DNA from: a virus
Virus record (IMG/VR): IMGVR_UViG_3300042520_000127
Location: 1 to 39,873 of that record
Length of the DNA: 39,873 nucleotides
Direction: 5' to 3' (one strand)
Shown: positions 1 through 39,873 of the stretch, in pieces
Position numbering within the stretch: the first letter of the stretch is position 1
Layout of the letters: each line of letters begins with the position of its first letter
Program-made: the position numbers and the translations under genes
Notes under the pieces: generated by a model
What the model was told of the DNA's origin: nothing
The model's database searches: none
Seen by the model: the letters and a program-made list of their open reading frames with translations, nothing else

Positions 1-128
1 CCTACGGGATCCCCAGTACAGTAAAATAACCCTGTCCCGAAATCAACCGAAAGGCGAAAACATGGACACAATGATCAAGCACTGCAAGTGCGGTAGTTGG
101 ATTTACGGTAACAATGTTTGCGAAGTAT
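1..128. repeat. terminal direct repeat (left copy)
   Basis: These 128 bases recur at 39746-39873 with one difference, C at position 2 against T at 39747. The exact match runs from position 3 to 128. This fits a circular or circularly permuted genome whose assembled ends overlap. The repeat holds the last codons of the gene ending at 39774 and the start of the gene at 62. The mismatch is in the third position of a Pro codon, so it is silent and could be a population variant or an end error. Confidence 0.93.
15..27 (+). promoter_or_regulatory. candidate promoter -10 region (AGTACARTAAAAT motif)
   Basis: AGTACAGTAAAAT lies about 35 bases before the gene at 62. It matches 12 of 13 bases of a motif at 19164 that also sits just before a gene start. 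TACAGT resembles a -10 box, but no clear -35 box is visible. The motif overlaps the end of the preceding gene in the circular map. It is followed by CCCTGTCCCGA (30-40), whose reverse complement occurs at 31639-31649. Confidence 0.35.
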
Positions 129-1732: not shown

Positions 1733-1945
1733 ATGACATTTACGATTGAGCGTGATCTCACTTTGGCTGAAATAGATGAGGCGATTGTTCATGCCTACAA
1801 AATGCTCAAAACAGATGAGTACGGCAACCGCATGGATTGGCGCAAGCGTGAACTATTGAGTGCCAGCATTGACGATCTACTTGACGCAAGATTACAAATC
1901 AGCGTAGAGTTGGCTCATGGAGATAATCAAGGCACAATTAACTGA
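1733..1945 (+). CDS. hypothetical protein (70 aa)
   Basis: This is a 70-residue, mostly helical acidic protein (MTFTIERDLTLAEIDEAIVH, then RELLSASIDDLLDARLQ). No known domain is recognised. It overlaps the start of the ParB-domain gene by 29 bases, so the two may be coupled. It could be an accessory of the modification cluster, but nothing in its sequence shows this. Confidence 0.55.
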   Translation: MTFTIERDLTLAEIDEAIVHAYKMLKTDEYGNRMDWRKRELLSASIDDLLDARLQISVELAHGDNQGTIN

Positions 1946-2588
1946 ATTAAACGAGTATGCAAAAAACCCACGCAAGGGCAACGTGGATCTGATTGCAGAG
2001 TCATTGTCAAAGTACGGTCAATACAAGCCAATCACCGTAAACAAAGACAACAACGAGATCCTTGCAGGCAATCACACCTTTCGCGCAGCAAAGCAGTTGG
2101 GTTGGGACACTATTGACGTGGTTTACGTTGATGTGGACTCAGAGACAGCGGCAAAGATTGTTGCAATAGACAACAGAGCCTCAGACATGGGTGAGTACGA
2201 CAACAAAGTGCTGGCTGATTTGCTTGACAGTATGGGCAACCTTGAAGGATCTGGATACACCTTTGACGAGTACGATGACCTGAAGGCTGAGATACAGGAA
2301 AGAGATTTGCCAACACTTGAACACAAAACACTTTTTGCTGCACTTGAAGTTGGCGAGAGTGGTCAATCAGGCACTCAGTTCATACCAACGCTGAGCGATT
2401 ACGCAGAGCGATACACCAACAAAGCAACACGTATGCTCATGCTGGACTATCACAATGACATCTACGTTTGGATAGTGGACGCGCTGATTGAATACCGCAC
2501 CGCAAACGGATTGACAAGCAACGGTGAAGCGATTTTGAAACTGGTTGAAGAGGCAGTTGATAGGAAGTGTCCACATGAACTTATCTGA
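1917..2588 (+). CDS. ParB/sulfiredoxin-fold domain protein
   Basis: The N-terminal 110 residues form a ParB-like domain: NEYAKNPRKG, then DLIAESLSKYGQYKPITVNK, then EILAGNHTFRAAKQLGW. The GNHTFRA box (51-57) matches the family's GxHRxxA signature, and EYDNKVLADLL follows. The C-terminal 110 residues are unfamiliar. Phage proteins with this domain occur beside DNA-modifying enzymes and may bind DNA or use nucleotides; the chromosome-partition role does not apply, since no ParA is present. It is the first gene of the hypermodification run and overlaps the dioxygenase gene by 14 bases. A targeting or loading role for the modification enzymes is inference. Confidence 0.8.
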   Translation: MEIIKAQLTELNEYAKNPRKGNVDLIAESLSKYGQYKPITVNKDNNEILAGNHTFRAAKQLGWDTIDVVYVDVDSETAAKIVAIDNRASDMGEYDNKVLADLLDSMGNLEGSGYTFDEYDDLKAEIQERDLPTLEHKTLFAALEVGESGQSGTQFIPTLSDYAERYTNKATRMLMLDYHNDIYVWIVDALIEYRTANGLTSNGEAILKLVEEAVDRKCPHELI

Positions 2589-3456
2589 GTTACCCGTACA
2601 CCGTATCAAGCGCGTCATGTCTGAAGAAGATGCAACCGCGCTGGTAGGTACTGTTGTTCCCGATTATGAGCCAAATTGCACTGAGGCTGGGATCTGGATT
2701 GACGACGACACTGAAGAAGTTATTTTTGTTTACTTTCCAATGGAGCAAGAGGTTGAACTGCTGAGAGCGTCTGTGTTGAACATCAACTACGGCACAACAA
2801 TCCGACAATCAACAGGCTTGAAAAACCAATCACGCACCTTTGGCATGGCACCACGCAAGATCTTTCAGAAGCGAGAGAGTTGCAGAGCAACCTCATTAGC
2901 GCATGAACAACCAAATGAACACGCAGTGCTGATTGCGTTTGCTGAGAAGTTTGCGCAGATGTACAAAGAGTTTGCGCCTGATCTTTACGAAGCAGATCGC
3001 AAAGCGCTTGCAGATAACAACGTGGCTGATGAGTGGCGCATGACTGATGACGCACTGTGGACGTCTGGAGTTGTCAATAAAGCCTCAACCCTGCCTTACC
3101 ACCGTGACGGGTTCAACTTTGCCACTTGGTCTGCAATGCCAGTGATCCGCAGAAAGATGAAGGGCGGATACCTGACGCTACCTGAATACAATTTCACTTG
3201 TTCATGTCGTGACGGCTGGGTGACATTCTTTGCAGGATACAAGTACGTGCATGGCGTGACACCAATGACGCCTAGCGCCAAAGACTCATACCGCTATTCA
3301 ATTGTTTACTACGCGTTGCGTGGCATGAAGGATTGCTTCACGTTTGCAGTAGAGACAGCCAAAGCACGTGAGAGCAGAACAAACCGTGAGGACAACATGG
3401 CAAAAGCGCTGAAAGGCGAAATACCTATGCCTCAGATTGGCGGCAAGAGTAAGTGA
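2575..3456 (+). CDS. TET/JBP-family 2-oxoglutarate/Fe(II) dioxygenase
   Basis: This protein of about 293 residues has the double-stranded beta-helix core of TET/JBP enzymes. YHRDGFNF gives the iron-binding His176 and Asp178, GGYLTLPEYN follows, then GYKYVHGVTPM with distal His226, then YRYSIVYYALRGMKDC with the 2-oxoglutarate-binding Arg240. Known family members oxidise the 5-methyl of thymine (JBP) or 5-methylcytosine (TET, phage TET) in DNA to hydroxymethyl. The ATG at 2575 is chosen because AGGAAG precedes it and it overlaps the ParB gene only slightly. The gene is joined to the next by a GTGA overlap. Whether it acts on T or 5mC cannot be decided from sequence. Confidence 0.83.
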   Translation: MNLSELPVHRIKRVMSEEDATALVGTVVPDYEPNCTEAGIWIDDDTEEVIFVYFPMEQEVELLRASVLNINYGTTIRQSTGLKNQSRTFGMAPRKIFQKRESCRATSLAHEQPNEHAVLIAFAEKFAQMYKEFAPDLYEADRKALADNNVADEWRMTDDALWTSGVVNKASTLPYHRDGFNFATWSAMPVIRRKMKGGYLTLPEYNFTCSCRDGWVTFFAGYKYVHGVTPMTPSAKDSYRYSIVYYALRGMKDCFTFAVETAKARESRTNREDNMAKALKGEIPMPQIGGKSK

Positions 3457-4337
3457 GCCTTTGGGCTGATTACACTCAATTCCACGAAGCGCAGACTCAA
3501 TCGCGTGACATGGATCCTGCGTACCCAGTGTTGAAATGGTTTGCTGACTCAATGAACCGTGAAAGCGGATTGTGGCTGACGTTTTTGTTTGTTGGCTACT
3601 ACCACATGGGATCAGCGCTCAAAGCGTTCAGCCTGTATCCAACATTGACCGTTCCAGATGAGGCAACCTTGAAATTGCCTATTGCTCAACCGCGCAGATC
3701 TCACAGAGCAACATTGCGGTTTGCGCAACACCTTGACTCACTATGCGCCAAAGCAGAGCAACACGGTGGCTTGGGGGCTTGGTTGGATAGTGCAAGCACG
3801 TCTGAGGATCCGCTGACAAATTGGAAAACACTTAACGATGAATTGACAACGGTGTACGGCAATGGGCGCTGGGCTGCATACAAAACAGCAGAGATCTTGA
3901 TGAAGTCTCACGGGTTCAACCTTGCAGCACCCGACATGGGCAACGCTAATTCAAGTGGACCACGCAAGGGACTGGGCTTGTTCTTTCCTGGACTACCGCA
4001 AGGCAACTCACCCGCTGAGATTGCATACCTAGATGAACTGAGCCTGAAGGTGGTTGAAAACCTCACAGGCAAAACCTCACAAGTAAGCATTGAAACGGCT
4101 GAAACCTCACTGTGCGATTTCTACGCGCTGAACAAAGGGCGCTACTACGTCGGTATTGACATTGATGAAATGCAGGAACAGTTGTTGCGTGTACCGTCGG
4201 ATCTAACTGCCTTGGCGTTCAAAGCGCGATACGAGACACTGCCACACGCATACTTAGGTGAATTGAACGGCTGGGAAGGCATAGACAAAAAGCGCAAAGG
4301 CGTTTACCGTGACACAAAGCAGATTGCACTGAGATGA
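3453..4337 (+). CDS. amino acid:DNA transferase-like protein (aGPT-PPlase/AADT family)
   Basis: This 294-residue protein resembles the alpha-glutamyl/putrescinyl thymine pyrophosphorylase (aGPT-PPlase, AADT) families, which have a DNA-glycosylase-like helical fold. Seen here are YGNGRWAAYKTAEIL (135-149), APDMGNANSSGPRKGLGLFF (159-178) with a conserved-looking Asp161, and ETAETSLCDFYALNKGRYY (214-232). Characterised members replace the phosphate of a phosphorylated 5-hydroxymethyl pyrimidine in DNA with an amino acid. The GTG start overlaps the dioxygenase stop, and the end overlaps the FAD gene by ATGA, so co-translation is likely. The assignment rests on motif memory and on neighbours, and needs a profile search. 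Confidence 0.72.
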   Translation: MSLWADYTQFHEAQTQSRDMDPAYPVLKWFADSMNRESGLWLTFLFVGYYHMGSALKAFSLYPTLTVPDEATLKLPIAQPRRSHRATLRFAQHLDSLCAKAEQHGGLGAWLDSASTSEDPLTNWKTLNDELTTVYGNGRWAAYKTAEILMKSHGFNLAAPDMGNANSSGPRKGLGLFFPGLPQGNSPAEIAYLDELSLKVVENLTGKTSQVSIETAETSLCDFYALNKGRYYVGIDIDEMQEQLLRVPSDLTALAFKARYETLPHAYLGELNGWEGIDKKRKGVYRDTKQIALR

Positions 4338-5149
4338 AACTAATTGTTATTGGCGCTGGCATTGCAGGATCTTCAACCACGCGTATTGCACGTGATAAAG
4401 GCTGGGACGTAACGCTGATTGACCACGCGCCTGAGCAGTCTGCGTCAAGATCTGCCCTTGCCACGATACGCCCAACATGGTTCGACAAATCCGAGCGTGA
4501 TGACCTTGAAAGATCTTGGGAGTGGTACAGCGCTTGGGGTGCAGCAGGATCCAGAGAAGCGTATGTATCAAATTGGCGCAACCGAGAAGTAAACAAACAA
4601 AAGGATTGGTGGCTGGTAGATCCGATTACGCCATTGGTTGCACCAGATCTCATTGAGCGCGTTGTTGGCGTCTATCCAAACTACGTCACAACTGACTCAG
4701 GACAAATCATTGAGGCTGACGCTATTTTGAATTGCACAGGCGCATACGGGGCAGATCTATCACGTGACGTGACATTGTTTGCGGGTGTCACCTGGATCTC
4801 GCACAACGCTGAATTAGATTATTCACCGTACCGCGTTCATCACCTAAGACCATACAAATCACTCTCAGCAGCACAAATCAACGGCGTGACGCGTGTCGGA
4901 TCTTCAATTGCTGCAACCGCTGACAAGGCAATAGATGACGCAAAAGAGATGTTGATGACGGCGCTTGCATTGGGGATAGTCAAGTCAGGTGATTGGGAGA
5001 TGTCATTAGGCTGGCGAGCAAAGGGCAAAGGCGGCATACCGATTTACCCAGAGTTAGGTGAGCGCAATGCTTATTTCTCAGGATTAGCCAGAAGCGGATA
5101 CGGGCTATCACCTGCTATCGCTGAGAAGTGGATTGATAGTTTGCGTTAA
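4334..5149 (+). CDS. small FAD-dependent oxidoreductase/lyase (DAO-like)
   Basis: This 271-residue flavoprotein has an N-terminal Rossmann dinucleotide site VIGAGIAGSS (GxGxxG at 7-12) with Asp30 closing the second strand (VTLID). An ILNCTGAYG segment (about 131-139) matches the second FAD-contact motif of D-amino-acid-oxidase-like enzymes, and the C-terminus has FSGLARSGYGLSPAIAEKW. It is shorter than cellular DAO enzymes (usually 330-400). In thymidine hypermodification pathways, flavin-dependent lyases process the amino acid placed on the base. That is the likely role here, as the gene overlaps the transferase gene and stands before the kinase gene. Confidence 0.8.
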   Translation: MKLIVIGAGIAGSSTTRIARDKGWDVTLIDHAPEQSASRSALATIRPTWFDKSERDDLERSWEWYSAWGAAGSREAYVSNWRNREVNKQKDWWLVDPITPLVAPDLIERVVGVYPNYVTTDSGQIIEADAILNCTGAYGADLSRDVTLFAGVTWISHNAELDYSPYRVHHLRPYKSLSAAQINGVTRVGSSIAATADKAIDDAKEMLMTALALGIVKSGDWEMSLGWRAKGKGGIPIYPELGERNAYFSGLARSGYGLSPAIAEKWIDSLR

Positions 5150-5211
5150 TTACAAAACACAGTTAGATTACGGCTACTGGCAGGCAACCGCCTGTTGAGT
5201 GCTGGACAACA

Positions 5212-5238
5212 CCTCTATTCAATCTGAGTAGGGGTTTT
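5212..5238 (+). terminator. candidate intrinsic terminator
   Basis: CCTCTATTC and GAGTAGGGG can form a 9-bp stem (two G-U pairs) with loop AATCT, followed by TTTT. A short hairpin (CAGGC/GCCTG, 5181-5194) precedes it. It sits in the 109-base gap between the FAD and kinase genes and may attenuate transcription between them. Confidence 0.45.
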
Positions 5239-5258
5239 GTTCGATAGAGGGGGCAAAA

Positions 5259-5792
5259 ATGAAGATCATTTACTTGATAGGCGCGCCAGGATCAGGCAAA
5301 ACAACTTTGACAGAAGCATTTACACACGATTGGAGAGACCACGCCAAACATGAGCAACCAATCAAATTCAGAACCCACCATACCCCGCATGGCGACGCAC
5401 TCTCACTTGGCTGGCTTAGACCAGCGTTTGGCGGAACAGACACGCTTGGCAATACGGCGATACTTGCGATTGAACCGTGGCTACCCAACATCGCCAAAGA
5501 CTATTCAATCATCTATGGAGAAGGCGACAGACTAGCCAACTCACGTTTTTTTGATTTGTGCAAGGGCATTGGAGAGTTCCACCTGTTCTACTTGAACACT
5601 GAGCCTTCAATTTGCGCTGAACGTCGCGCACAAAGATCCTTATTGACAGGCAAGACACAAAACCCTACTTGGGTTAAAGGCAGAGAGACTAAGCACAGAA
5701 ACCTTGCAAGCACGTACAAGGCGTTTGAAATACCTTCAGGGCTAACACCTCAGGCTGGCGCGGATCTCATGCGTAATGTAATCTTTTCCTGA
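5259..5792 (+). CDS. P-loop kinase, probable 5-hydroxymethylpyrimidine DNA kinase
   Basis: This 177-residue P-loop NTPase has Walker A GAPGSGKTT (8-16), a GGTDTLG segment near 58-64, GEGDRLANSRFF (87-98), which resembles the acceptor/Walker B part of this group, and a basic lid ERRAQRSLLTGKTQNPTWVKG. Phage 5-hmdU DNA kinases of this size phosphorylate the hydroxymethyl group in DNA, activating it for the amino acid transferase. The AGAGGGGG ribosome site before the ATG is strong. A possible terminator lies upstream, so expression may be set apart from the four preceding genes. A generic nucleotide kinase is possible, but the neighbourhood favours DNA base modification. Confidence 0.75.
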   Translation: MKIIYLIGAPGSGKTTLTEAFTHDWRDHAKHEQPIKFRTHHTPHGDALSLGWLRPAFGGTDTLGNTAILAIEPWLPNIAKDYSIIYGEGDRLANSRFFDLCKGIGEFHLFYLNTEPSICAERRAQRSLLTGKTQNPTWVKGRETKHRNLASTYKAFEIPSGLTPQAGADLMRNVIFS

Positions 5793-5808: not shown

Positions 5809-6051
5809 ATGAGAAAACATGTTGGTAAGGCAAACAAACCTGCGTCTCTATTTGATTGCGATTTAAACGAGATTAATGAGTTTGCAGATTACGTAAAGAC
5901 TCAAACAACCCTTAAAATAATGCGCACGATTGAAAACAAAATAATTGACCACGTGTTAGATAACTCTTGCTGGCAGTTGTGCGATTACACAGACACATTA
6001 CAAGAGATAGTAAATTTACTATCAACGGAAGTTGAAGCAAAACACACATGA
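5809..6051 (+). CDS. hypothetical protein (80 aa)
   Basis: This 80-residue, mainly helical protein (DLNEINEFADYVKTQTTL, ending LLSTEVEAKHT) has no domain I recognise. It begins 17 bases after the kinase gene with AGGAAACATAG upstream of its ATG, and overlaps the small terminase gene by ATGA. It could belong to either the modification or the packaging group. Confidence 0.6.
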   Translation: MRKHVGKANKPASLFDCDLNEINEFADYVKTQTTLKIMRTIENKIIDHVLDNSCWQLCDYTDTLQEIVNLLSTEVEAKHT

Positions 6052-6530
6052 GAAAGACACCTAAGCCAGAGCAGATAGACAAAGAGATCAAGGTGCTTGA
6101 ACTGAAGCGTTCAGGGGCTACTTGGGACGCTATTGCTGAGGTGGTTGGATACGCAAACGGTTCAGGCGCGTTTAAGGCTTACCAAAGGGCAATGGTGCGC
6201 ACACAACAGCAACCCGCTGATGAACTGCGCAACATGGAGATTGATCGCCTAGACCGATTGCAGAGGGCGCATTGGTTTGACGCGATTGGGACGAAAGACG
6301 TATTACCCAACATCAAGGCAGGCGAGTTTGTATTGAAGTGCATTCAAGAGCGTAGCAAGTTGTTAGGACTTTACGCACCAACAAAGATCCAAGCAGAGGT
6401 GGTCACGTATGACGCAAGTGGAATTGAAGCCGACATTGAGCGAATTGCCCTTAACCTCAGAGGAATGGATCAGGGCGTCACGCTGGCGCTGGAAGCAGGA
6501 ACAGGCGAGACAGGAACAACTACCGCCTGA
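6048..6530 (+). CDS. terS: terminase small subunit
   Basis: This 160-residue protein has an N-terminal helix-turn-helix (KRSGATWDAIAEVVGYANGS) and a helical middle part (MEIDRLDRLQRAHW, then AGEFVLKCIQERSKLLGL) typical of small terminases, which recognise the packaging start on phage DNA and recruit the large subunit. It directly precedes terL and overlaps it by 122 bases in a different frame, so its C-terminal 40 residues are constrained by the start of terL. The identification rests on domain pattern and position. Confidence 0.8.
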   Translation: MRKTPKPEQIDKEIKVLELKRSGATWDAIAEVVGYANGSGAFKAYQRAMVRTQQQPADELRNMEIDRLDRLQRAHWFDAIGTKDVLPNIKAGEFVLKCIQERSKLLGLYAPTKIQAEVVTYDASGIEADIERIALNLRGMDQGVTLALEAGTGETGTTTA

Positions 6531-7779
6531 GGGTGATTGGGCTATTTGGTTGTACATGGCTGGGCGCGGTGCAGGTAAAACACGCACTGCTGCTGAGTGG
6601 CTTGCTTGGGAAGCAATCAGCCAACCCAACACGCGCTGGGCGATAGTTGGACCAACCTACGGTGACGCCAGAGATACCTGCGCTGAGGGCGAGTCAGGCG
6701 TACTCAATGTTCTGAGACGTTACAAGGCGTTGAAGGATTGGAACAGATCTCTTGGTGAGATCCTTTTGCACAACGGATCGCAGATAAAACTATTTTCAGC
6801 AGACAAGCCTGATCGGTTCCGTGGACCACAGCATCACGGCGCGTGGTGTGATGAGTTAGCAGCGTATAGGTACAGTGACGCGTGGGATCAGTTGCAGTTT
6901 GGTATGCGCTTGGGAGATAAACCGCGCATTGTTGTCACCACAACACCTAGACCAACAGCGCTCATCAGAGCATTGGCAGGGCGCAATGACGGATCTGTGG
7001 CTATCACTCGCGGATCTACTTTTGACAACGCCAAAAACCTTGCACCTTCAGCGCTGCTTGAACTTGAAGCCAGATACGCAGGCACCAGATTAGGGCGTCA
7101 GGAACTGTTTGGCGAGATTTTGGACGACGTTGAGGGCGCATTGTGGACTAGGGGACTTATTGAGCGCAATAGGCTCCAGAAGGCTCCAGCGCTGGCAAGA
7201 ATAGTTGTGTCTATCGATCCCGCAGTCACTAATACAAAAGATAGTGATGAGACGGGAATTGTTGTGTTGGGATCTGACGCGCAAGGACACGGATACGTGT
7301 TGGGTGATTATTCTTTCAAGGGATCTCCACTTGATTGGGCAAGCAAAGCGGTTTCAGTTTTTGACGAGTGGAAAGCAGACTCAATCCTGGTTGAAGTCAA
7401 TCAGGGCGGTGACATGGTGAGTGCGGTGTTGAAGCAAATCCGATTAGGGCTACCAATCCGAGAAGTGCGAGCGCACGTGGGTAAGAGATTACGCGCTGAG
7501 CCAGTTGCAGCAATGTATGAGCAGGGACGTATCCACCACATTGGAGAGTTCGCCAAATTAGAGGATCAGATGACCGTGTGGACACCTGACGACCCAGACT
7601 CACCAGATCGCATTGACGCAATGGTGCAGGGGTTTGCCGATCTTTTGGGCACGCAAAACGTAATGAATTACTTTAACGCCATTGCTAACTTTTGCCCTAA
7701 CTGCAATTTGCCTAACCCAAAATCTTCAGCCATGTGCTTGAAGTGTGGAAGCGCTATTATTACGCCAGCAGTCGGATAG
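6409..7779 (+). CDS. terL: terminase large subunit
   Basis: This 456-residue packaging motor has Walker A AGRGAGKTRT (51-60), Walker B ending in CDEL (Asp148, Glu149) and coupling motif TTTP (177-180). The C-terminal nuclease begins at VVSIDP with metal-binding Asp270, and RIDAMVQGFADLL holds a late acidic residue. It cuts concatemeric DNA and pumps it into proheads. The last 30 residues carry an unusual zinc ribbon (CPNC then CLKC). The ATG at 6409 lies inside terS, and the residues before Walker A look like normal TerL N-terminal sequence, so the long overlap seems real. Confidence 0.95.
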   Translation: MTQVELKPTLSELPLTSEEWIRASRWRWKQEQARQEQLPPEGDWAIWLYMAGRGAGKTRTAAEWLAWEAISQPNTRWAIVGPTYGDARDTCAEGESGVLNVLRRYKALKDWNRSLGEILLHNGSQIKLFSADKPDRFRGPQHHGAWCDELAAYRYSDAWDQLQFGMRLGDKPRIVVTTTPRPTALIRALAGRNDGSVAITRGSTFDNAKNLAPSALLELEARYAGTRLGRQELFGEILDDVEGALWTRGLIERNRLQKAPALARIVVSIDPAVTNTKDSDETGIVVLGSDAQGHGYVLGDYSFKGSPLDWASKAVSVFDEWKADSILVEVNQGGDMVSAVLKQIRLGLPIREVRAHVGKRLRAEPVAAMYEQGRIHHIGEFAKLEDQMTVWTPDDPDSPDRIDAMVQGFADLLGTQNVMNYFNAIANFCPNCNLPNPKSSAMCLKCGSAIITPAVG

Positions 7780-29614: not shown

Positions 29615-30638
29615 AGATCAGTTTAAGAATTTGCCGCCTGAAATTGAAAGTGCAGACGTGAAAGAATTGCGTCAAGCGCTCATGCGGTTGCAGAAACAGT
29701 TGCGTCAATCTAAAGAGCGCACCCAAGATCTAGTTGAAGCCTCACATCAAGCAGCCTACGACGCAATGCTGACAATGGGCAAGATCGAACCTGTCGCAAT
29801 ACCCGTTGCAGACAAACGCAAAGCAAAAGGTGAAGTGGCTTTGTGGCACATGACAGATTGGCAAGGCGCAAAGCGCACTACGTCGTACAACAGTGAGATT
29901 ATGCGCAAGCGTGTTTTGGAGTTTTGCGAGAAAGCAGTGCGCATTACCGAAATCCAAAGAGCAGATCACCCAGTCAAAGAGGTAACAATCTGTTTTGGCG
30001 GGGACATGGTTGAGGGTTTATTCAACTTTCCAACCCAAGCATTTGAAGTAGACGCAACGCTGTTTGAGCAATACGTCAATGTATCTCGACTTTGCGTAGA
30101 CGTAGTGCGGTATGCGTTGGCTAATTACGAGAAGGTCACAGTCATTGCAGAGTGGGGTAATCATGGTCGCATTGGATCCAAGCGCGACAACGTACCGCGC
30201 TCAGACAACTTTGACCGTATGTGCTATGAACTTGCCCGTCAGTTGCTTCAGGGGGAGAAGCGACTGACGTGGCAGGATTGTCCTGAGGACATCCAACGCA
30301 TTGAAATCGGGAACTACCGCGCATTGCTTATTCACGGCGATGAAGTAGGTAGAAATGGATTTGCTTCACCTGGCGCGATTGTTCAACACGCAAACAAATG
30401 GCGCTCAGGATCTTATCCGTGGGACTTCAGAGATGTTTACATTGGTCACTACCACACTCACTCAGAGTGGGCTATGGCTAACGGTCAAGGATCTGTTTAC
30501 CAAACTGGATCTACCGAGTCAGACAACCGATACGCAGGTGTCATGCTTGCCGCGAGTGCAACACCGTCTCAGCGATTACATTTCATTGACCCAGTTAAGG
30601 GCAGAGTGACGGCGGTGTATAAAGTATGGCTGGATTAA
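29604..30638 (+). CDS. calcineurin-like metallophosphoesterase
   Basis: This 344-residue protein has an N-terminal coiled coil (LRQALMRLQKQLRQSKERTQ) and then a metallophosphoesterase core: HMTDWQ (His82, Asp85), GGDMVEG (Asp134), WGNHGR (Asn186, His187), LIHGDE (His244) and GHYHTH (282, 284). These are the metal ligands of the two-metal site. Phage members of this type may be nucleases (Mre11/SbcD-like) in DNA processing. No partner SbcC-like ATPase is present. It overlaps the genes on both sides. Confidence 0.85.
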   Translation: MSLEDQFKNLPPEIESADVKELRQALMRLQKQLRQSKERTQDLVEASHQAAYDAMLTMGKIEPVAIPVADKRKAKGEVALWHMTDWQGAKRTTSYNSEIMRKRVLEFCEKAVRITEIQRADHPVKEVTICFGGDMVEGLFNFPTQAFEVDATLFEQYVNVSRLCVDVVRYALANYEKVTVIAEWGNHGRIGSKRDNVPRSDNFDRMCYELARQLLQGEKRLTWQDCPEDIQRIEIGNYRALLIHGDEVGRNGFASPGAIVQHANKWRSGSYPWDFRDVYIGHYHTHSEWAMANGQGSVYQTGSTESDNRYAGVMLAASATPSQRLHFIDPVKGRVTAVYKVWLD

Positions 30639-31327
30639 GACCTGCAACGCTGTTGTCGTCCAACAGTGAATTGCGACCTGACGGGATTTACAACTGGAGC
30701 ATACCTGCGCTCGCAGCAAAACTCAGCAACGGCACCAACGTCAAAACCTGTCCCAATGCTGGCGCTTGCGCAACGGTTTGCTACGCTCGCAACGGCACAT
30801 ACAATTTCAGCAACGTCAAGGGGCGTCACGTCAGAAACCTTGAATACATACTTGAAGATCCACAAGGTTGGTTTGCGCAGATGCTTGAAGAAGTGTCCAA
30901 GCCAAAAATGCGTGGCAAGCACGTACGGATCCATGACGCTGGAGATTTTTTTTCAGAGGACTACCTACGAATGTGGCTTAAACTGGCGACGCTTGTACCT
31001 GAGGTGACTTTCTACTGCTATACCAAAGAAGTGTCCATGTTCAAACGAGTTTTGTCAGAGGGCTGTCCTAACAACTTTAAATACCTATTCAGCATGGGCG
31101 GTAAAGAGGATCACCTGATTGACAAAGAGAATGACCGTCACGCTGAGGTGTTTCCTGATGACGCTGCAATACTGGACGCGGGATACATGAACCAATCAGC
31201 CTCAGATTTGCTTGCGATTACTTTGCCAACAAACAAAGTGGGCATACCTCAAAACAACATACCGCAGTTTAGAAAGCGGTTAGCGGGTAAGACATTTGGC
31301 GAGTTGCAGATTGAGCGTGAGTCTTAA
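30626..31327 (+). CDS. gene product 88 (GP88) family protein
   Basis: This 233-residue protein has SSNSELRPDGIYNWSIPALA, then CPNAGACATVCYARNGTYNF, RIHDAGDFFSEDYLRMWLKL and FYCYTKEVSMFKRVLS. It matches the GP88 family known from mycobacteriophages, whose Cys cluster recalls iron-sulfur enzymes; the role is not established. It ends against the only minus-strand gene, with which it shares TTAA at the two stops. Confidence 0.8.
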   Translation: MAGLRPATLLSSNSELRPDGIYNWSIPALAAKLSNGTNVKTCPNAGACATVCYARNGTYNFSNVKGRHVRNLEYILEDPQGWFAQMLEEVSKPKMRGKHVRIHDAGDFFSEDYLRMWLKLATLVPEVTFYCYTKEVSMFKRVLSEGCPNNFKYLFSMGGKEDHLIDKENDRHAEVFPDDAAILDAGYMNQSASDLLAITLPTNKVGIPQNNIPQFRKRLAGKTFGELQIERES

Positions 31328-33782: not shown

Positions 33783-34446
33783 TCTCAATGAAATGCTTGT
33801 TAAGTCTCTTAATGCTTTCGACGCCAGCAGGTCACGCTCACTTCAAGTTGAGGTTGGACCAAGCAGTATTGGCGGGTGTCGCAGACGCGTTTGGCATGAG
33901 TTAAAACAAACGCCTGAAACCAACCCTAACACCGAGTCTCTTGCAGCAATTCTGGGTACGTTTATTCACGCAGGGATCGAGAAGGCGATTAGGCGTGAAG
34001 ATCCTTTTGGTGACAATTTCATTATTGAAGGTGAGTTCAAGTCAGGTGATCTCAAAGGTCACGTGGATTTATTCATCAAGGACATTGGCTTGGTAGTGGA
34101 TTGGAAAACAACCAAGGTCAAGTCACTGCGGTACTTCCCGTCACAGCAACAACGCTGGCAGGTTCAGATCTACGGTTGGTTGCTTGAACAAAATGGGCAC
34201 ACAGTCAATGAGGTTGCACTTGTGGCAATTCCACGTGACGGTGAAATGGCAGACATACGTGTTCACAAAGAACCTTACGACGCGCCAACAGCATTAGCGG
34301 GGATTGAGTGGTTGGAAGGCATAAAGTTTATTGTTGAAAACAATGAGCCAGCACCGTTGCCTGAAGAGTCACCATTCTTTTGCACCAAATACTGCTCGTA
34401 TTACGATCAGACAGGAGAAGTAGGTTGCCCAAGTACGCAGAAATAA
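33763..34446 (+). CDS. RecB/Cas4-like PD-(D/E)XK exonuclease with Fe-S cysteines
   Basis: This 227-residue nuclease has FIHAG (His68), GHVDLFIKDIGLVVDWKTTK with catalytic Asp101, Asp112 and Lys114, and QVQIY (Gln132, Tyr136). One Cys near the N-terminus (Cys39, in IGGCRRR) and three near the C-terminus (Cys206, 210, 221) match the 1+3 arrangement of the 4Fe-4S cluster in Cas4 and AddB nucleases. It probably resects DNA ends for recombination with the annealing protein and SSB. No cas genes are near. It overlaps whiB by 22 bases. Confidence 0.85.
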   Translation: MRKTVIDLNEMLVKSLNAFDASRSRSLQVEVGPSSIGGCRRRVWHELKQTPETNPNTESLAAILGTFIHAGIEKAIRREDPFGDNFIIEGEFKSGDLKGHVDLFIKDIGLVVDWKTTKVKSLRYFPSQQQRWQVQIYGWLLEQNGHTVNEVALVAIPRDGEMADIRVHKEPYDAPTALAGIEWLEGIKFIVENNEPAPLPEESPFFCTKYCSYYDQTGEVGCPSTQK

Positions 34447-34784
34447 ATTGGGAATTGGCTGAGTGTCGCGGTATGTACACCGATCTGTTCTACCGCATTG
34501 AGGAAGAGCGCAGTGCTGACGCATACGTGTTTATCAACGCGGTCAGAGAAGTATGCGCACGTTGTCCTCTTTGGCAACAGTGTTTTCAGTATGCGTATGA
34601 ATACGAACGGTACGGAGTATGGGGTGGTATGACGTCGCTGGAGAGGGCGTCATTCCACTCACCCAACAAGTACCCAAATCAGCGCCAGAGGGCGCTCATG
34701 TCATTATCCGAGTTTGGCATTACATTAGAGAACATTAGGAGAGCAATTGAGCATACGTCTCATGTCGGAAGTGTGGCTGACTAA
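34425..34784 (+). CDS. whiB: WhiB-family transcription factor
   Basis: This protein of about 119 residues has the WhiB signature: Cys14 (LAEC), then CARCPLWQQC (Cys44, 47, 53), binding a 4Fe-4S cluster, and GVWGG at 64-68, the turn that contacts the host sigma factor. WhiB proteins are found only in Actinobacteria and their phages; in mycobacteriophage TM4 a WhiB protein blocks host WhiB2 and affects septation and superinfection. The TTG start at 34425 has AGGAG seven bases upstream and keeps Cys14; a farther start would lie deep inside the nuclease gene. Confidence 0.92.
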   Translation: MPKYAEINWELAECRGMYTDLFYRIEEERSADAYVFINAVREVCARCPLWQQCFQYAYEYERYGVWGGMTSLERASFHSPNKYPNQRQRALMSLSEFGITLENIRRAIEHTSHVGSVAD

Positions 34785-36097: not shown

Positions 36098-36465
36098 TCC
36101 AATTCAGAGTTGACGGTAAACCCATACCACAAGGGTCAATGTCGGCTGTCAATGGACACATTTTTCACTCGCAAGGCTCAGCGCTAGCAACATGGCGCGC
36201 TTCAATTGCGATTGCAGCAAGGCACGCTGGCGCTCAACCGTCGGCAAAACCGATTTCAATGACAATGGTATTTATCTTTCAAAAACCAAAAACCGTTACA
36301 CGCGCTGAACCGACAGTGCCGCCTGATTTGGATAAGTTGATACGCGCGGTATTAGACGGATTGACGGCGATAGCGTACAAAGATGACGCCCAAGTTACCG
36401 AAATTAGGGCTATCAAGATCTACGGCGAAAGACCTGGAGTTGAGATCCAGATTGTTGAAAAATAA
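36094..36465 (+). CDS. rusA: RusA-family Holliday junction resolvase
   Basis: This protein of about 123 residues has FRVDGKPIPQGSM at the start and PPDLDKLIRAVLDGL with Asp78, Asp80 and Asp88, followed by YKDDAQVTEI with Asp97/98, the metal-binding acidic residues of RusA. It resolves four-way junctions in replicating phage DNA before packaging. The GTG at 36094 overlaps the previous stop; an upstream GTG (36019) would add unrelated sequence. It is the last gene before the first duplicated leader. Confidence 0.88.
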   Translation: MIQFRVDGKPIPQGSMSAVNGHIFHSQGSALATWRASIAIAARHAGAQPSAKPISMTMVFIFQKPKTVTRAEPTVPPDLDKLIRAVLDGLTAIAYKDDAQVTEIRAIKIYGERPGVEIQIVEK

Positions 36466-36613
36466 ATAAAAAAAAGTTAAAAAAAGTTTGGCGCGTCGTA
36501 GACTTTTTTTGTTTTGTCCCAGAAGATTATCTTATTGAGACCAAATCGGTTTCTACTAAATCGCTGGAGGCAAAAATGCTAGATCAAAAAAAGACAGTAA
36601 ATACAAGCGAATT
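36461..36613 (+). repeat. duplicated promoter/leader cassette, copy A
   Basis: This stretch is closely similar to 38041-38194. It runs from the stop of RusA through an A-rich tract, a TTTGGCGCGTCG box (from 36487), a T-run, an AT-rich promoter-like part (GATTATCTTATTGAG), TCTACTA, a GGAGGC ribosome site, and the first 13 codons (LDQKKTVNTSEF) of the next gene. AAAAAAAGT and ACTTTTTTT flank the box and could pair. Confidence 0.8.
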
Positions 36614-37779: not shown

Positions 37780-38045
37780 AGTTAGATGAGTCTGACTTTG
37801 AAATGTTGTACACAACGTCAATGGCTTGGGGCGTTCAATGGATCTTGCAACAAACCCGATTTGCCAGCAAGCAACCAATTCACTACGACCACAAATGGGC
37901 GTATTGGTTCAAGGACTACTCAGCGTATTTATTTGCGCGTACATTTCTGGACGGGATCCGAACCGACTATCAAGAATTGATTGATGAGGCTACGGGCGAT
38001 TTTGTATTGCTCAGTAATTACACCGCGCTCACTTGGCAAAAATAA
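37776..38045 (+). CDS. hypothetical protein (89 aa)
   Basis: This 89-residue protein (MKLDESDFEMLYTTSMAWGV, then YAYWFKDYSAYLFARTF-like aromatic helices) has no domain I recognise. It ends inside the second copy of the duplicated leader, where its last codons and stop (AAAAATAA) correspond to the end of rusA. Confidence 0.63.
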   Translation: MKLDESDFEMLYTTSMAWGVQWILQQTRFASKQPIHYDHKWAYWFKDYSAYLFARTFLDGIRTDYQELIDEATGDFVLLSNYTALTWQK

Positions 38046-38194
38046 ATAAAAAAAAGTTAAAAAAACTTTGGCGCGTCGGTAGATTTTTTGTAATTTATAG
38101 GTCATGATTTCTTTATTGAGTTCAGAGTGGACTCTACTAGATCGAAAGGCAAACAAGTGTTAGATCAAAAAGAGACAGTAAATACAAGCGAATT
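38041..38194 (+). repeat. duplicated promoter/leader cassette, copy B
   Basis: Copy of 36461-36613: the A-rich tract, CTTTGGCGCGTCG box, T-run, then TTTTTGTAATTTATAGGTCA (a near match to the divergent region at 31613), TTTATTGAG, TCTACTAGATCGAAAGGC and codons for LDQKETVNTSEF. The two copies flank three complete genes and part of a fourth. Confidence 0.8.
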
Positions 38195-39558: not shown

Positions 39559-39774
39559 ATGGAGTATCAATTCATGTTACAGATAATCACTGACGGGTCT
39601 GTAACTTATAGCAAGAAGTACGACAATGCCATTGACGCAGTGAAGGCGTATGAGCGTGTGGTGGATTACGGATTTGCTCATTACTGGCTTGAAGCGGTTC
39701 TGGTTGAACCCAGCGGAAAGGCTCACAGCAAGACCTTTCAGACACCTTACGGGATCCCCAGTACAGTAAAATAA
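39559..39774 (+). CDS. hypothetical protein (71 aa)
   Basis: This 71-residue protein (MEYQFMLQIITDGSVTYSKK, then AVKAYERVVDYGFAHYWLEA) uses ATG 39559, eight bases after AGGAAGG. An upstream ATG (39505) would overlap the preceding gene and has no ribosome site. Its end holds the AGTACAGTAAAAT promoter-like motif, and its last codons recur at positions 3-29. The function is unknown. Confidence 0.6.
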   Translation: MEYQFMLQIITDGSVTYSKKYDNAIDAVKAYERVVDYGFAHYWLEAVLVEPSGKAHSKTFQTPYGIPSTVK

Positions 39775-39873
39775 CCCTGTCCCGAAATCAACCGAAAGGC
39801 GAAAACATGGACACAATGATCAAGCACTGCAAGTGCGGTAGTTGGATTTACGGTAACAATGTTTGCGAAGTAT
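39746..39873. repeat. terminal direct repeat (right copy)
   Basis: Second copy of 1-128, with T at 39747 where the left copy has C. Both codons encode Pro. It joins the two ends of the window into one circular map. Confidence 0.93.
39807..39873 (+). CDS. start of the small zinc-ribbon gene (partial, duplicate of 62-151)
   Basis: This is the first 22 codons of the 29-residue protein that is complete at 62-151, cut off by the window end. It is present twice only because of the terminal redundancy and is not a separate gene. Confidence 0.75.
   Translation, partial: MDTMIKHCKCGSWIYGNNVCEV

Follow-up and report, generated by a model that had tools for sequence, protein, structure and literature searches.

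What does the phage do to its DNA with the five genes that lie in a row near the left end of the virus record IMGVR_UViG_3300042520_000127, and to which base does it do it? We analysed the whole stretch of 39,873 nucleotides (the window), in which a preliminary description had read the row as a DNA base hypermodification cluster. All five reading frames are open on the plus strand at the positions first given for them, and all five proteins have Pfam matches that exceed the curated cut-offs: a ParB N-terminal-domain protein of 223 amino acids (1917..2588; PF02195, ParB_N, E 4.7e-7; phrog_723, 1.1e-47), a TET/JBP 2-oxoglutarate (2OG)-Fe(II) dioxygenase (2575..3456, the frame being open from a TTG at 2545; PF12851, E 3.3e-12), an amino acid:DNA transferase (ADDT or AADT, 3453..4337; PF18724, E 4.9e-17), a flavin adenine dinucleotide (FAD) enzyme of the phage flavin-dependent-lyase family (4334..5149; PF01266, DAO, E 6.3e-15) and a P-loop kinase (5259..5792; PF18751, Ploopntkinase3, E 1.9e-25). 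The first four genes have overlapping ends, as had been noticed: ParB and TET share 14 bases, given a TET start at ATG 2575, and the TET/ADDT and ADDT/FAD overlaps are 4 bases each, with a gap of 109 bases before the kinase. The row is far beyond chance because the same families recur in the same arrangement in cultured phages and in many distinct viral loci; the enzyme families, their co-occurrence and their recurrence in other viruses largely support the hypermodification reading.

We consider it likely that the five genes serve to hypermodify thymine in phage DNA once it has been replicated, with 5-aminomethyl-deoxyuridine as the end product. In the proposed route, the TET/JBP enzyme would oxidise thymine in DNA to 5-hydroxymethyl-uracil, and the kinase would phosphorylate the hydroxymethyl group to give 5-phosphomethyl-uracil; ADDT would then swap the phosphate for an amino acid, most likely glycine, yielding N-alpha-glycinyl-thymidine, from which the FAD lyase would remove the carboxymethyl part to leave 5-aminomethyl-deoxyuridine, while ParB may bring the enzymes to the phage DNA. 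What the data show directly is which families the proteins belong to, how they co-occur, which of them exclude one another and how modules are swapped; from this we infer the substrate base, the amino acid, the order of steps and the product. Modified bases usually protect phage DNA against the DNA-cutting defences of the host, and the predicted base may have the same protective role.

The choice of base, left open between thymine and 5-methylcytosine in the preliminary description, turns on the source of the hydroxymethyl group. M6-type phages use a thymidylate-synthase-type enzyme, dUMP hydroxymethylase, to make the 5-hydroxymethyl-uracil nucleotide. In 49 records from which the loci came we looked for TET, ADDT, C5-cytosine methyltransferase and members of the thymidylate-synthase superfamily; in another 20, which have an M6-type ADDT, the search covered TET and thymidylate synthase. 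Among the 60 viral records that bear ADDT, 37 have TET without a thymidylate-synthase-type gene and 23 the latter without TET, while none has both and none neither; the Fisher value of 4e-17 is nominal, as the records are related and 20 of them were picked by similarity to the M6 ADDT, so that their independence is overstated. So exact a trade suggests that TET supplies hydroxymethyl-uracil, replacing the step that makes it in M6-type phages, but on DNA. Judged by a perfect terminal direct repeat of 126 bp at both ends (left copy at 3..128, the other at 39748-39873), the window appears to be a complete genome, and gene absences in it therefore carry meaning. PF00303, the dUMP hydroxymethylase/thymidylate-synthase superfamily, was not found in it; nor was PF00145, the C5-cytosine methyltransferase family, which was not found in 10 complete cultured actinophage genomes with TET either. 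Because TET trades with the thymidylate-synthase-type gene and the methyltransferase is missing from both the window and the ten actinophages, thymine is favoured over 5-methylcytosine as the predicted target.

The dioxygenase itself scores 46.4 bits against PF12851 (cut-off 34.9), and the motif HxD...H...R, made up of the Fe-binding HxD...H and a 2OG-binding Arg, that had been listed as His176/Asp178/His226/Arg240 corresponds to H186, D188, H236 and R250 when numbered from TTG 2545; these residues are invariant in 10 aligned phage homologues. A single-sequence search of PDB with TET gave weak matches, and a search of NCBIfam matched no TET and no ADDT model. The protein would act as a thymine hydroxylase on DNA. 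A ParB gene lies upstream of TET in 103 of 107 TET loci, perhaps with a role in DNA binding or loading. The name 'queuine tRNA-ribosyltransferase', which PHROG 6059 attaches to TET, we reject as a propagated label, and it has been carried onto TET proteins in RefSeq phage records.

The next two families are recognised best through profiles of their relatives. ADDT scores 62.9 bits against PF18724 (cut-off 26.2); its single-sequence PDB search was uninformative, and it was the family profile, built from eight relatives, that resolved it, matching two phage proteins of known structure, the amino acid:DNA transferase 25qc (2.5e-14) and 8z2m, labelled a glycinyltransferase (1.9e-8), as well as gp051 of phage M6 (3.2e-18), itself an ADDT. 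An unrelated family, raised earlier as a way in which the assignment at 3453 could fail, is thus not what the comparisons return, and the transfer of glycine is the activity we would predict. A search with the FAD protein alone gives a weak match (E 0.012) to the phage flavin-dependent lyase of known structure; with a family profile of seven sequences, this lyase (8z2o/8z79) becomes the best solved match at E 3.5e-13, the next best being at 4.1e-6 and the amino-acid oxidases all ranking behind the lyase. On this reading, the enzyme would cut the glycinyl adduct back so that an aminomethyl group remains. A parallel exists in tRNA, where MnmC uses flavin to cleave a carboxymethylaminomethyl group to an aminomethyl group (PMC9626948). 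A free amine as product would suit the acetyltransferase gene that lies between ADDT and FAD in some relatives.

The kinase falls into phrog_800 together with M6 gp054, which matches the Pfam model of 5-hydroxymethyl-deoxyuridine (5-hmdU) DNA kinases. Its Walker A motif, GxPGxGK(S/T)T, is conserved; the family profile reaches only E 0.0054 against gp054, over the P-loop, and a single-sequence PDB search was uninformative. The protein at 5259 is, then, a member of a P-loop kinase family and not of an unrelated one, and its predicted task is to phosphorylate hydroxymethylated bases in DNA. The kinase is present in each of the 43 loci that combine TET, ADDT and TerL (the large terminase) and in none of the 14 glycosyltransferase loci.

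How the parts combine was surveyed in loci gathered via ADDT, TET and FAD, which, after grouping of overlapping loci, gave 114 neighbourhoods. The ParB-TET core followed by ADDT, FAD and kinase is the commonest form in the sample (45 neighbourhoods), the counts for FAD being approximate as a strict FAD-lyase profile matches 53 of the 60 genes so labelled, the other 7 being members of a remote Rossmann family; the idea that the cluster might be a minimal version is therefore not upheld, as it is no stripped-down form. A GNAT acetyltransferase is added to ADDT, FAD and kinase in 6 neighbourhoods and an amidoligase in 2. Elsewhere ADDT and kinase stand with a PLP-type (pyridoxal phosphate) enzyme (12) or without FAD (7), or ParB-TET is followed by the kinase alone (10), by a glycosyltransferase-like gene with a HAD-like protein (9) or by a glycosyltransferase-like gene alone (6); rarer forms bring radical-SAM or Asp-hydroxylase-like proteins. 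The PLP reading (cluster c3) is based on a PHROG shared with a threonine-dehydratase-like protein and on inspection, and the HAD reading (c5) on inspection. The GNAT, amidoligase, PLP and radical-SAM additions reportedly match known branches of thymidine hypermodification. In two loci, L072 (9833-10696) and L086, ADDT and FAD of a TET cluster flank the amidoligase-like gene (PF12224), a hint that one more group is ligated to the base. In phage LilMcDreamy (L006:2656-3759; PF05118, 1.5e-10) and in L105, a protein with an aspartyl/asparaginyl hydroxylase-like domain occupies the FAD slot, so that TET is joined there by a second 2OG oxygenase, whose substrate is perhaps the amino-acid adduct. The Rossmann-type proteins of phages Wooper (L002:3054-3926) and Tonitrus (L004:3761-4642) are unannotated and are remote kin of the FAD lyase (hhalign 96%, E 2.4e-9).

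The survey also speaks to the order of the steps. Among 64 loci with TET and TerL, 49 have the kinase only, 14 a glycosyltransferase only, none both and 1 neither. A sugar can be attached directly to a hydroxymethyl base, while an amino acid needs an activated, phosphorylated base, and since only the latter requires phosphorylation, the exclusion agrees with a kinase step after TET and before ADDT. Profile searches of PDB with the families in the glycosyltransferase position gave no match; the predicted fold of one of them matched GT-B enzymes including the T4 alpha-glucosyltransferase (AGT), and that of a second, predicted at low confidence (pLDDT, the predicted local distance difference test, of 64), had the T4 beta-glucosyltransferase (BGT) as its top match, so that both families resemble glycosyltransferases of DNA or sugars in their folds. 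The proteins concerned (L128:8450-9903, L162:1526-2506 and relatives), which follow TET, in one case with a HAD-like partner, and have no Pfam match, probably belong to glycosylated-base systems. Closely related TETs stand before different modules: those 77-87% identical to the window TET precede ADDT and kinase without FAD, those 62-79% identical precede ADDT and PLP, and those 63-76% identical precede glycosyltransferases. In the ADDT tree, subtype tracks the downstream enzyme, with 11 label changes against 31.8 in shuffles, and the FAD-less group is nested beside FAD-bearing ADDTs, as if the FAD gene had been lost; a search for it elsewhere in three FAD-less records (G023-G025) did not find it. 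The module swaps and the ADDT lineages that track their partners fit a TET that makes a common handle and later enzymes that decide the product. Where TET is accompanied by the kinase only, as in phages Stinger, KayaCho and MementoMori, the predicted pathway would end at the phosphomethyl base.

Several points weigh against the proposed thymine pathway. The phage TETs so far tested reportedly act on 5-methylcytosine, which the host could supply, and the product is not fixed by TET alone, as TETs 62-79% identical to that of the window precede other modules. For the kinase, the comparison with known 5-hmdU kinases that had been suggested came out divided: PHROG 800 is common to it and M6 gp054, and PF18748 (HMUDK_HMUD1), the 5-hmdU kinase model, is not among the families listed for the protein. 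Moreover, about 300 Mycobacterium phage records have a kinase relative without a detected TET relative, and in one such phage, UncleHowie (L031:1-567), the kinase retains all conserved positions and adjoins TerL, with no TET, ADDT or thymidylate-synthase-type gene found. The family may thus have another role, and in phages of the UncleHowie type the kinase may be a remnant, may draw on another source of hydroxymethyl base or may have a second job.

Two alternatives survive best, and both seem improbable to us. In the first, TET would oxidise host-made 5-methylcytosine to 5-hydroxymethylcytosine, on which kinase, ADDT and FAD enzyme would build an amino-modified cytosine. Besides the reported activity of characterised phage TETs, 8 of the 49 records match the C5-cytosine methyltransferase model at E<=0.001, some of them beside the same module (e.g., G029 and G031); yet the window and the ten actinophages lack such a gene, the ADDT, kinase and lyase families, as far as they have been solved or assigned, act on thymidine derivatives, and the trade of TET is precisely with the source of 5-hydroxymethyl-uracil. 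The TET-dependent cytosine hypermodification of phages is said to use a TET/JBP enzyme for the hydroxymethyl handle and to need a phage C5-cytosine methyltransferase; the window has in common with it the TET handle for further enzymes but not the methyltransferase. The second alternative, equally doubtful, makes the FAD enzyme an amino-acid oxidase of the housekeeping type that has nothing to do with DNA, and takes the glycinyl, or another amino-acid, adduct as the finished base. The DAO-type fold of the enzyme would allow this, and the 7 neighbourhoods with ADDT and kinase and no FAD gene indicate that close relatives can stop at an adduct, but the family profile places the phage lyase far ahead of the amino-acid oxidases, and the FAD gene follows ADDT across diverse viruses. 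Slightly less plausible still is a kinase that serves DNA packaging, outside the modification pathway, as its head-and-packaging label in PHROG 800, its place beside TerL in many phages and the roughly 300 Mycobacterium records could be taken to imply: the gp054 family member of M6 bears the same label, the kinase gives way precisely in the loci that have a glycosyltransferase although these retain TerL, and a separate gene stands between kinase and TerL in the window and in Arthrobacter phage Kharcho, which speaks against the kinase as small terminase. We accordingly reject 'terminase small subunit' as a propagated label, one that RefSeq phage records have carried from PHROG 800 onto base-modification kinases.

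The thymine pathway thus preferred has close precedents. The gene arrangement itself is already known: a five-gene thymine hypermodification system was named, as a prediction, in Rhodococcus phage Tonitrus (PMC11955845). Like the window, Tonitrus has ParB, TET-like, ADDT (aGPT-Pplase2) and kinase genes and a further gene at its left end; unlike in the window, the last protein is of the divergent Rossmann family, its gene is preceded by the kinase, and extra small genes are present. The left ends of Mycobacterium phages Phelemich and Reprobate, a different lineage, carry all five genes ahead of the terminase in an unchanged order (ADDT 46% and FAD 33% identical to those of the window), annotated merely as hypothetical protein, oxidoreductase and adenylate kinase. 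Pseudomonas phages M6 and PaMx11 share a homologous ADDT and a P-loop kinase of the same PHROG, and the flavin-dependent lyase and glycinyltransferase in PDB, homologues of the window FAD and ADDT proteins, presumably come from PaMx11. M6 has a thymidylate-synthase-type gene, no TET and separate radical-SAM, PLP and HMUDK_hel genes, whereas the window has TET, no thymidylate-synthase-type gene and none of the other three within the cluster. Our analysis adds two exclusions, TET against the thymidylate-synthase-type gene and kinase against glycosyltransferase; it also places the FAD gene among the flavin-dependent lyases and maps the modules. The window system reads as a variant of thymidine hypermodification, predicted to work like the M6/PaMx11 pathway without that pathway's defining first step.

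The host is likely an actinobacterium, as the preliminary description had it, because of three observations. The window encodes a WhiB-family protein (34380..34784, plus strand; PF02467, 2.6e-13), and such proteins are typical of actinobacteria and of the phages that infect them; relatives of ADDT occur in cultured phages of Mycobacterium, Gordonia, Microbacterium and Rhodococcus, the close relatives being all actinobacterial; and a bacterial genome collection holds only two relatives, one on a Streptomyces contig and the other in an Actinomycetes metagenome-assembled genome. TerL (6409..7779, plus strand; PF03237, 4.7e-28; PF17289, 2.5e-13) has relatives of mixed origin and does not settle the question. 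The gene before it on the same strand (6048..6530; phrog_645, 8.2e-27, labelled 'Rnase E'; no Pfam match) is probably the small terminase, a role that we read from its position, genes of this type sitting directly 5' of TerL in many relatives (neighbourhood cluster c1). Farther along, 30626-31327 encodes a GP88-family protein (PF17338, 1.8e-49), a mycobacteriophage family without assigned function, and in the right arm 36458-36613 and 38038-38194 form a diverged duplication (52 nt at 88% and 116 nt at 72%) that includes the motif TTTGGCGCGTCG and is possibly regulatory.

Beyond this genome, we lean towards the view that the TETs of this phage group are JBP-type thymine-DNA hydroxylases that make 5-hydroxymethyl-uracil in finished DNA, having independently replaced the nucleotide-level route, and that they feed swappable modules (amino acid and flavin trimming, amino acid and PLP, acetylation, phosphate only, glycosylation), uncultivated actinophages carrying 5-aminomethyl-uracil made in this way. 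The cultured phages with the same cluster (Phelemich, Kozie, Wooper and Tonitrus) make the prediction testable. The module swaps beside related TETs would amount to enzyme sets for putting amino, sugar or phosphate groups onto DNA thymine, usable for testing which restriction systems each modification blocks. If TET acts on thymine, bacteriophages hold DNA thymine hydroxylases like the JBP enzymes of trypanosomes, and one hypermodification chemistry would have two interchangeable starts, at the nucleotide or on DNA.

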